A stretch of 64,000 bases of DNA from Salinarchaeum sp. Harcht-Bsk1 (GTDB lineage Archaea > Halobacteriota > Halobacteria > Halobacteriales > Salinarchaeaceae), in the NCBI RefSeq assembly GCF_000403645.1, contig NC_021313.1, positions 1,941,014 to 2,005,013 of the forward strand. The letters are read 5' to 3'. Numbering within the stretch: the first letter of the stretch is position 1; every line of letters begins with the position of its first letter. Shown piece by piece: positions 20,406 through 23,232 of the stretch. The notes under the pieces are model-generated. The model did not search any database and had not been told where the DNA came from. It worked only from the letters and a program-made list of their open reading frames with translations. A program made the translations under genes and the position numbers.

Positions 20406-20765
20406 TCAGAACAGGTCCGCGTCGTCGCCGTCCTCGTCGTCGACCTCGCCACGGGCCGCGACGGTCGTCGAATCGCTGGTCGTGTTCTCGAGACGCTGCT
20501 CGATCAGGGCCTCGAAGTCGTCGGTCTCGTCGTACTGCGTGCGGAGGTCGACCGCGGCGCGGCCCTCCTCCGTGATCTCGTAGAGCCCCGATTGCTTGGC
20601 GGGCCCCACTTTCCGGGCGAGCCCGTAGTCGGCCAGCACGGGCAAGCGGTTGTTGACGTTCTTGCGGCTCTTTCCAGTCACCTTCGCGAGGTTCGTCGCG
20701 ACGTTTCGGCCGTAGGTGTGCAGAGCTTCGAGAATCAGGAAATCGGTTGGCTGGCGGAGTCGCAT
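20406..20765 (-). CDS. PhiH1-repressor-like winged-helix regulator
   Basis: 119 residues. Residues 5-80 form a winged helix (MRLRQPTDFLILEALHTYGR, NVATNLAKVTGKSRKNVNNR as recognition helix, then the wing SGLYEITEEG). The tail is acidic (DDEDGDDADLF). Such proteins are common in haloarchaea and resemble the phage PhiH1 repressor. Divergent from the CHAT gene with a shared A/T-rich 160-bp gap, so it is a candidate controller of that locus. A TATA (AATTATAAGG) lies at 20797-20806. Confidence 0.82.
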   Translation of the reverse strand: MRLRQPTDFLILEALHTYGRNVATNLAKVTGKSRKNVNNRLPVLADYGLARKVGPAKQSGLYEITEEGRAAVDLRTQYDETDDFEALIEQRLENTTSDSTTVAARGEVDDEDGDDADLF

Positions 20766-20925: not shown

Positions 20926-23061
20926 ATGGCTGACTCCCATTCTCCCGGGACGCTCATCACGCAGTCCTTCGGGGTCGACCATGGCCTGGACGTCGTCGAT
21001 CCGATCGAGCGGCTGCGACGGACGATCCGGACCGACGGCCCGGTCTCGCCGACGGACGTCTCGCCAGATCGGTTCCCGATGCCGGTCGAGTCCGCTGTCG
21101 AGATCGAGACATCGAGGGTCGTGCTTCCAGTAGAATCGCAACTTTGCATCCGCGATGTCGAAGGCCGGATGTTGGAAGAGGTCCAACTCGAAACAAAACG
21201 GTCACTTCCCGAGAGCACTTACTTCATTGAACCTGGTGGGATTATTAAAATATATCTCAAAGTAACCAGTCCGCTTGAGATCCGTCAAGACGGGTCCGCA
21301 ACTGAGGTTCAGTTCGACGGTGAGATCGCAGTCTCCATTGGGAGTTGTTCCACGCACGATAGGCCTGCTACCACGATCACGGTAACGGAAGAACCATCGG
21401 ACCTATTGCCAGCCATAACCGCATTTGGCTCTGCACTGAAGACAAAGTCTCCTGAGAGGGCCTTCCCGACCCATCGCGGACATCCACCGAAACTGAAACT
21501 CGGTGACAGTTTGGATGTGCCCAGCGGTTTGGAACCGCCGTCAGATCGGATCGAGGTACAGGTTCCTCCACGATTTGCCGACATTTTCGCTGTTGCCCCA
21601 CTGGCGTACTATCTGGGTGCTCCAGTCAAGGACGGTCCTCCGAGAATCGTCGGGGACTCCTGGACTCATTCGCTCGAATCCCATGGTAGCTTAGAGCATG
21701 GCGTCGAACGAACGCTCAAGAAACTGTTCTTGCTTGACTGCGTTACTCGCACGGAAGGGATCTATCAGATCGATTTGTTTGAACGCAAACAGCTCGAAGA
21801 ACATCTCGATCTCGACTTTCCTTCGCTCTACGGTGAGCGGCACGACCGGCGGGTCGAAGCCTACCTGAGCGTCCCGTTCGATTCAATCGAGGATGTCGTG
21901 CCGGACTGGAAACATGCTGCACACGTGGCCCCCCGTCCAAAGAGTGCGGAAGCACTACCCTATCTCGTTGATGACCTCGCTCTGGTACGCACTGCAGAAG
22001 CGGAACCAGTCTCATCCGATGCGATTCAAACCGGGGCAACGCAGGGCCTCGTGCGTGGAGTCGATGCGAAGGTATTCGAGCAACGGCCTGAATGTCTCCA
22101 GAACCTCTCGGCCCCAGGTATCGTCCGGGGAGATGTTACTGCCGAAGCCGACTATGTCCATCCAACAGATCCCGCCCAAACGATTGAAGAAACCTGGGTC
22201 GGTGATGGGACACCAATCGGTGCATCGAAAGCCATCCCAGAAGCATTCGAAAATCGGACTGGCAGATCCTTGTCAACCGGGTCGATCGATATTTCGGTCG
22301 TCTGCAATGCTGAAGAGATGGCTGAAGAGGGGGACCTCGTGGACGATGCCTACGGGTCTCGTGCCGAAGCCGAACTTCCCTTCGATATTACGATTCGCTC
22401 AGACACGACTTCCGAAGAACTGACCGATATTTTGGCAGAGGAACGGGATTTTCTCCACTACATCGGGCATATCGACGACGATGGATTTCGTTGCACAGAT
22501 GGCCGTCTTGACGCGAGTCAGATCGAAGACGTAGGAGTTGACGCATTTTTCCTGAACGCTTGCCAGTCCTACGAGCAGGGAACCGCTCTCGTCGAAGCTG
22601 GAGCAATTGGAGGAATTGTCACGGTTAGGAACGTGGCCAATCTCGGAGCAGTGAAAATCGGTCGAGCGGTAGCACAGTTGCTGAATTCTGGCTTTCCGCT
22701 CCGTCCAGCGCTGGACATTGCTCGCGACGAGAGTATCATCGGATGCCACTACATCGTCGTCGGTGACGGCGGGCTCTCAATCGTGCAGCCGATGAGTGGC
22801 ACTCCGTATCTCGGAGACATCGAGCAAACGGGGGAGAAATACAAACTATCGTTGGACCTGTTTGGCGCGTCTCCTGGAATGGGTGGGGTGTTCTCTCCTC
22901 ACCTCGCTGGCGTCTCTGAGTACTACCTGGCATCAGGCTCGATTACTGAATTGGTCGTCACTGGGGATGAACTGGATTCTTTCTTACACAACGAGAACTT
23001 CCCAGTCCGTAGGAACAGCTGGCTCGAGTGGAGTAACGAACTTTCTGCTGAGCATCTTTAG
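20926..23061 (+). CDS. Haloarchaeal CHAT-domain (caspase-like) protein
   Basis: 711 residues from MADSHSPGTLITQSFGVDHG. The C-terminal third is a CHAT cysteine-protease domain: catalytic His515 in HYIGH and catalytic Cys546 in FFLNACQSYEQG, followed by the family's GAIGGIVTV and GDGGLSIVQ strands. The N-terminal ~480 residues contain blocks I associate with a widespread uncharacterised haloarchaeal family (ALKTKSPERAFPTHRGHPP, APLAYYLGA, LDCVTRTEG, LPYLVDDLALVR); no membrane helix. From about 21120 on, the G+C is well below the window average, suggesting transfer. Its stop overlaps, tail to tail, the stop of a 46-residue membrane peptide gene. Substrate and trigger unknown. Confidence 0.85.
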   Translation: MADSHSPGTLITQSFGVDHGLDVVDPIERLRRTIRTDGPVSPTDVSPDRFPMPVESAVEIETSRVVLPVESQLCIRDVEGRMLEEVQLETKRSLPESTYFIEPGGIIKIYLKVTSPLEIRQDGSATEVQFDGEIAVSIGSCSTHDRPATTITVTEEPSDLLPAITAFGSALKTKSPERAFPTHRGHPPKLKLGDSLDVPSGLEPPSDRIEVQVPPRFADIFAVAPLAYYLGAPVKDGPPRIVGDSWTHSLESHGSLEHGVERTLKKLFLLDCVTRTEGIYQIDLFERKQLEEHLDLDFPSLYGERHDRRVEAYLSVPFDSIEDVVPDWKHAAHVAPRPKSAEALPYLVDDLALVRTAEAEPVSSDAIQTGATQGLVRGVDAKVFEQRPECLQNLSAPGIVRGDVTAEADYVHPTDPAQTIEETWVGDGTPIGASKAIPEAFENRTGRSLSTGSIDISVVCNAEEMAEEGDLVDDAYGSRAEAELPFDITIRSDTTSEELTDILAEERDFLHYIGHIDDDGFRCTDGRLDASQIEDVGVDAFFLNACQSYEQGTALVEAGAIGGIVTVRNVANLGAVKIGRAVAQLLNSGFPLRPALDIARDESIIGCHYIVVGDGGLSIVQPMSGTPYLGDIEQTGEKYKLSLDLFGASPGMGGVFSPHLAGVSEYYLASGSITELVVTGDELDSFLHNENFPVRRNSWLEWSNELSAEHL

Positions 23062-23198
23062 ACGATCGTAGTTCCATTCGCACCGTCTGCCGCGACACTC
23101 CCGACTTGCGAGAGCGCCAGCAGCAGCGTGAACAGCACGCCGATCTTTCGGGGGTTGTTCGCCAGGTACTGCATCATTCGACCATTGCTATCGGACAT
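23058..23198 (-). CDS. 46-residue single-helix membrane peptide paired with the CHAT gene
   Basis: Begins MSDSNGRMMQYLANNPRK and continues with one hydrophobic stretch (about 19-36, IGVLFTLLLALSQVGSV), then AADGANGTTIV. A basic N-side, a membrane helix and an Ala-x-Ala-like end look like either a small membrane protein or a signal peptide releasing a short tail. I recall similar short haloarchaeal proteins (NPR-x-IGVLFTLLL...) beside CHAT genes. A strong TATA lies about 30 nt upstream. The gene is convergent with the CHAT gene and overlaps it by 4 nt. Confidence 0.8.
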   Translation of the reverse strand: MSDSNGRMMQYLANNPRKIGVLFTLLLALSQVGSVAADGANGTTIV

Positions 23199-23223: not shown

Positions 23224-23232
23224 AAATTAAAA
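23224..23232 (-). promoter_or_regulatory. TATA box of the 46-residue peptide gene
   Basis: TTTTAATTT on the minus strand, centred 30 nt before the ATG at 23198, in an A/T-rich patch. Confidence 0.65.

Follow-up and report, generated by a model that had tools for sequence, protein, structure and literature searches.

A gene for a 711-residue protein with a predicted caspase-like fold and a gene for a 46-residue membrane peptide face each other tail to tail in the haloarchaeon Salinarchaeum sp. Harcht-Bsk1. Their conservation, co-occurrence, predicted fold and intact catalytic residues make it well supported that the two genes belong to one undescribed module, near-universal in haloarchaea, that joins a CHAT-type enzyme to a membrane peptide. 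The window (the whole 64,000-nucleotide stretch of DNA that was analysed) comes from a genome assembled as a single contig of 3,255,260 bases, whose nearest named relative is Salinarchaeum laminariae. A prior reading of the sequence only had proposed the pair as an undescribed system; the pairing was not found in the literature searched, but the peptide is already catalogued as a Pfam family. No paper naming DUF7503, DUF7504 or the CHAT domain together with haloarchaea was found in a search whose coverage lay mostly outside subscription journals and preprints.

The CHAT-fold protein and the facing membrane peptide

Both open reading frames, their coordinates and the His515/Cys546 dyad are as that reading had given them, and the 4-nt overlap of the two stop codons is seen at the junction of the genes. 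The TATA box claimed for the peptide gene corresponds to an AT-rich, TATA-like element, which we regard as a putative promoter. The features of the pair are as follows.

20926–23061, plus strand: CHAT-fold protein P0001, 711 residues, subfamily A of the haloarchaeal family (open reading frame, translation, AF2 and Foldseek)
20953–22035, plus strand: N-terminal region, residues 10–370, with a beta-sandwich-like part and a mixed alpha/beta part (confident model)
22153–22800, plus strand: CHAT (caspase-fold) region, about residues 410–625 (fold matches; invariant HYxGH and LNxCxS motifs)
22468–22470, plus strand: codon of predicted catalytic His515 (invariant across 65 homologues)
22561–22563, plus strand: codon of predicted catalytic Cys546 (invariant across 65 homologues)
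23058–23061, no strand assigned: overlap of the two stop codons, TTAG, 4 nt (sequence)
23058–23198, minus strand: membrane peptide P0002, 46 residues, Pfam DUF7503 (PF24335; E 6.5e-17)
23088–23144, minus strand: hydrophobic segment of the peptide, residues 19–37 (Kyte-Doolittle mean 1.98 over 19 residues)
23148–23153, minus strand: codons of peptide Pro16-Arg17, candidate cut site (Pro-Arg/Lys in 81/81 distinct peptides)
23226–23232, minus strand: ttttaat, TATA-like element and putative promoter for the peptide (sequence; shared with S. laminariae)

P0001 has no match in Pfam, NCBIfam, PADLOC or PHROG. The curated cut-off of the Pfam CHAT family (PF12770) is not reached by P0001 itself, and 17 of 58 homologues match that family weakly (best E 3.5e-4). 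The AF2 model of P0001, built on an alignment of 58 homologues, has a mean pLDDT of 85 and a pTM of 0.86. Compared with the PDB by Foldseek, it matches gingipain R (2.6e-7), separase (7e-7), the SAVED-CHAT filament (8e-7) and Craspase TPR-CHAT (1.4e-4), and the probability of a shared caspase-like fold between this predicted model and gingipain, separase and CHAT proteins is 1.00. Residues H511, G514, H515, N544, C546 and S548 are invariant among 65 distinct homologues, and the dyad that had been proposed as intact is kept in nearly all homologues. Given the fold, the invariant dyad and the weak Pfam CHAT matches of the homologues, P0001 is predicted to be a divergent member of the CHAT fold whose dyad is intact, similar to clan CD peptidases. 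Some homologues on plasmid records are labelled ‘CHAT domain-containing’ or ‘caspase family’, and most are labelled ‘hypothetical protein’.

The conserved N-terminal region that had been claimed for the protein is evident in 19 invariant alignment columns and in the invariant motifs KTxSPERxxPxxRGHPP and RTEG. A search of the PDB with the model returned no match to this region with an E value below 1e-3; glycosidase beta domains, which bear a weak local likeness to it (E of at least 3e-3, TM about 0.2), were rejected as its fold. The region is possibly a sensor or regulator.

The peptide P0002 (MSDSNGRMMQYLANNPRKIGVLFTLLLALSQVGSVAADGANGTTIV) scores 61.3 bits against the DUF7503 profile, the curated cut-off of which is 27. 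The family is under purifying selection with a pN/pS of 0.24, and this value, together with Pfam family membership, rules out a spurious small open reading frame. The pN/pS is higher in the tail than in the N-terminal part and helix. All 81 distinct peptides carry the Pro followed by Arg or Lys, a basic residue that opens the hydrophobic segment; one Phe is likewise invariant and one Gln is present in 79 of the 81. Downstream of the hydrophobic core come an AxA-like motif of small residues and a variable tail, which ends in Gly-Pro in 70 of the 81 peptides and in the rest mostly in Thr/Ala-Ile/Val-x, as in the window. Such a sequence would fit either a single membrane helix with its N-terminus inside or an exported leader. 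The TATA-like element lies ~27 nt 5′ of the peptide ATG, and AT-rich elements recur 5′ of the peptide gene in most homologues.

Conservation of the pairing and its exceptions

The adjacency of the two genes, for which other haloarchaea were the obvious check, is conserved from both sides. At 84 of 87 distinct subfamily A loci, a convergent DUF7503 gene lies within 500 bp of the CHAT gene, and in the reverse view a convergent CHAT gene is present at 30/30 best DUF7503 loci. As a control, an open reading frame with Pro-Arg/Lys and a helix occurs at 6 of 472 3′ ends of other long open reading frames, a difference that rules out chance adjacency. For 37 of the 81 distinct pairs, the gap between the two genes measures 0 or −4 nt. 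The exceptions among the 87 loci include L049, where the peptide gene is convergent and 2.7 kb off; at L027, one DUF7503 peptide is encoded on the same strand at a distance of ~1.4 kb.

The same association holds at the level of genomes. According to the CHAT and DUF7503 search tables for 293 genomes sampled across the order, the CHAT family is present in 268 genomes and DUF7503 in 249; 19 genomes carry CHAT alone, 25 carry neither and none carries DUF7503 without CHAT (Fisher 1.3e-24, a value that overstates independence as the genomes are related). Peptide and CHAT distances are correlated (Mantel r 0.53), which common ancestry alone could explain. The pair holds together in varied genomic surroundings, on plasmids and where a genome has several copies of it, and the other flanking genes are less conserved than the pair itself.

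Intact CHAT copies number up to about a dozen per genome. By hand count, peptides face a CHAT gene in 12 of 12 cases in genome G189 (one of them at 2.7 kb), 8 of 8 in G151, 6 of 8 in G113 (one adjoining a CHAT fragment), and 4 of 9 in G179. At one of the 12 loci of G189 (L205, G189:C1:1705200-1709000), stop codons interrupt the CHAT gene and the frame of the facing peptide is likewise disrupted, which would fit joint decay of the pair. Diverged peptides missed by Pfam lie convergent beside CHAT at L197, L198, L199 and L201, and they retain Pro-Arg/Lys, the hydrophobic stretch and mostly the Gly-Pro end. At three other subfamily A loci (L200, L202 and L203), no peptide was detected when diverged forms were sought too, and the dyad is retained.

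Peptides also occur apart from the enzyme. A DUF7503-like peptide, MARKALQNAVAQHPKAVGALFTSAVALSQVQSTLAVWGCGSLGP, is present at L186, L190 and L194 of genome G179 (around 1414-1696 in each). It lies inside a dispersed repeat of about 170-290 bp, five near-identical copies of which occur in that genome with no adjoining CHAT gene. The repeat is possibly a small mobile element carrying the peptide.

Relatives, history and neighbouring genes

Subfamily B of the CHAT family keeps the dyad and has a conserved chromosomal location, next to a serine hydroxymethyltransferase-like gene; the third CHAT copy of the window's genome (C1:2919738-2921810) belongs to it. DUF7503 is found beside 0 of 17 subfamily B genes. 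At three of these 17 loci (L158, L161 and L162), a Pfam-negative peptide with an HPR-helix layout is convergent and 3′ of the CHAT gene, and two of the three peptides end in Gly-Pro. These look-alikes weaken the idea that the peptide is confined to one subfamily and suggest that the partnership may predate DUF7503 or extend beyond it. Since subfamily B retains the dyad mostly without a peptide, the CHAT enzyme may also have targets other than the peptide.

More distant CHAT relatives (L148–L151, in genomes G300, G309, G318 and G327) come from outside the order, from a single different family within the phylum, and no peptide was detected at these four loci. One of them, L150:3840-5906, has lost both the His and the Cys of the dyad and is a possible pseudoenzyme. 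On a quick tree, the peptide label needs four changes compared with 21 in shuffles, which a single gain plus three losses could explain; this history is provisional because diverged look-alikes exist. HVO_2248, a hypermotility gene considered as a possible relative, was set aside, as the paper describing it gives no link (PMC7824242).

The most frequent further neighbour is DUF7504 (PF24336), a putatively KaiC-like family that adjoins CHAT in 41 of 108 loci, about 40% and a lower bound given that many loci are short. It lies mostly directly upstream or divergent, as in L040:4132-4866, L055:3848-4855 and L009:3728-4519 (same strand upstream, or divergent), and in one case HalOD1 is encoded in the same frame. 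Galperin and colleagues described HalOD1-iKaiC proteins, in which iKaiC is a divergent, possibly inactivated KaiC-like domain (PMC5847659). A weak DUF835 match suggests that DUF7504 may be this iKaiC domain. The window's genome has seven DUF7504 matches, none of them beside a CHAT gene, so that an obligatory third component is unsupported in this species. Divergent from the CHAT gene in the window is a gene for a 119-residue winged-helix protein (20406-20765, minus strand). Only L031 and L045, both Salinarchaeum-type loci, have such a gene close to CHAT, and for this reason it probably lies outside the module.

Homologues are present on 25 plasmid records. Searches of phage records gave no match and searches of viral contigs no relative, and a viral module was rejected on this basis.

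Possible workings of the pair and their significance

The best reading of these data, to which we give somewhat less than an even chance, is that a CHAT cysteine protease and a dedicated membrane peptide work as one functional module, the peptide being cut by the protease or switching it. The CHAT protein would act as a cytosolic cysteine protease, and the peptide would be membrane-embedded, its conserved N-terminal half (YLxxHPR/K-M) turned toward the cytosol, where the CHAT protein would bind this segment directly. Once its N-terminal region is triggered, the protease would cut the peptide or be switched through it. Residue E468, about 47 residues ahead of His515, is Glu in subfamilies A and B and stands at what is presumably the S1 acid site in clan CD enzymes, e.g. 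gingipain R and MALT1. By analogy, E468 and the basic residue at the membrane edge of the peptide suggest a cut after Pro-Arg/Lys, and such a cut would free a hydrophobic helix with a short tail, acting in or beyond the membrane.

This cut-or-switch arrangement accords with the reciprocal pairing, with the finding that DUF7503 never occurs without a CHAT homologue in the sampled genomes, and with the mostly one-to-one pairing in multi-copy genomes. It is further supported by the diverged peptides at the copies missed by Pfam, the joint decay at L205, the invariant dyad and motifs in a fold like that of clan CD peptidases, and the invariant basic position at the start of the hydrophobic segment; the correlated peptide and CHAT distances agree with it, though ancestry could suffice. 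Against it, the conserved basic residue may just set membrane topology, L200, L202 and L203 keep the dyad without a detectable peptide, subfamily B does so for the most part, and one genome holds five near-identical solo copies of a peptide.

The caspase-like fold and the His/Cys dyad are common to P0001, the SAVED-CHAT filament (8tl0), Craspase TPR-CHAT/Csx29 (7y84), separase and gingipain. Compared with these solved CHAT and clan CD structures, the haloarchaeal N-terminal region differs, being without a PDB match, and the partner is a 46-residue membrane peptide. No CRISPR, SAVED or TPR part was found in P0001. The type III-E CRISPR effector Craspase does not describe the pair: P0001 has no TPR or Cas domain, and the recurrent neighbours of CHAT are DUF7503 and DUF7504, not Cas7-11. 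In bacterial gasdermin modules, a protease gene (including CHAT) lies beside the gene for a membrane-acting protein, and the haloarchaeal pair follows the same pairing logic of a CHAT-type protease with a putatively membrane-acting partner. By contrast, the haloarchaeal pair is convergent and near-universal in the order, whereas gasdermin modules are patchy, and DUF7503 with its 46 residues is too small for a gasdermin fold, which excludes a gasdermin-protease module. Neither P0001 nor P0002 matches any described defence protein in PADLOC; with no such match and no CRISPR-type partner, a known defence or CRISPR system was rejected. The near-universal distribution, the ordinary chromosomal surroundings and the absence from the viral collections searched favour some general function in stress or signalling over a dedicated anti-phage, gasdermin-like role.

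An unlikely but credible alternative takes the peptide for a Sec-exported pro-peptide, which signal peptidase would cut at the AxA-like motif to release a tail of 8-10 residues, with CHAT as an intracellular processor or responder and DUF7504/HalOD1 proteins as partners in signalling. The leader-like layout (a short hydrophobic core with a basic residue before it, and AxA positions occupied by small residues) is what such a signal would need, the tail varies among paralogues and is less constrained than the core while mostly keeping its Gly-Pro end, and DUF7504 is a frequent neighbour; however, the conservation of Phe, Gln and Gly in the core goes beyond the needs of export, and we know of no pheromone receptor among caspase-fold enzymes. 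RRNPP pairs offer a likeness, as in them a tiny leader-like peptide gene with a varying tail lies beside the gene of a large cytosolic protein. The haloarchaeal pair differs from them in that the partner has a CHAT fold and is no known RRNPP receptor, the peptide core is conserved and the genes are convergent. RRNPP-type pairs of pro-peptide and receptor are described in PMC10075063.

That the peptide merely tethers or restrains CHAT at the membrane, the real substrates lying elsewhere, we also consider unlikely. The strongest constraint on the N-terminal part and helix of the peptide would suit such an anchor or inhibitor, as would the retention of the CHAT enzyme without the peptide in subfamily B, but an essential brake predicts that peptide-less CHAT genes are rare or dead, and L200, L202 and L203 keep the dyad.

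It is improbable that the two genes form a toxin-antitoxin-like or antisense pair, in which overlapping tail-to-tail transcripts would control each other and the peptide would be a small hydrophobic toxin. The nearly fixed orientation and the frequent gaps of 0 or −4 nt speak for it, and only 7 of 81 pairs have a T5 run in the interval from the CHAT stop to the start of the peptide (a count without a control set), so that CHAT transcripts may read through the peptide gene. Yet gaps as wide as 260 nt occur, one pair type has a gap of 2.7 kb, solo copies of the peptide are known, and the partner is a conserved enzyme rather than a small RNA. In the type I toxin-antitoxin TxpA/RatA, a small hydrophobic peptide has a convergent, overlapping partner; the convergent overlap is alike, but what the haloarchaeal peptide faces is a conserved protein some 700 residues long. 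Adjacency by inheritance alone, with no functional link, is very improbable: the genomes are related and the quick tree is compatible with a single gain followed by losses, but the pair persists across neighbourhoods, plasmids and multi-copy genomes where other flanks are less conserved.

The protease-membrane effector or peptide-signal role that the sequence-only reading had suggested may apply to the pair, for which cell death, peptide signalling and membrane recruitment are candidate roles. A broader and more doubtful proposal is a haloarchaeal proteolytic signalling or cell-fate system, in which the caspase-fold protease would have the 46-residue membrane peptide as its dedicated substrate and a KaiC-like/HalOD1 protein would be a frequent third part.

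CHAT proteases with partners and DUF7503 as a Pfam family were already known; what is new is the unusual partner and arrangement for a CHAT protease. Extracts of Haloferax volcanii contain strong caspase-like (Asp-specific) activity of unidentified source, and the authors of that work noted the lack of clear caspase homologues in archaeal genomes and the need to identify the proteins behind the activity (PMC3615174). Haloferax species carry the CHAT-peptide pair (L036–L050), and H. volcanii has DUF7503. The CHAT family could be one source of haloarchaeal caspase-like activity, although the cleavage preference predicted here may be for basic residues and not for Asp. In 268 of the 293 genomes there is a family that combines a caspase fold with a conserved dyad and is annotated mostly as ‘hypothetical protein’. 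Because the pair is small and deletable in a tractable model archaeon, the source of the caspase-like activity can be put to direct test, and a novel type of protease-peptide partnership may come to light.
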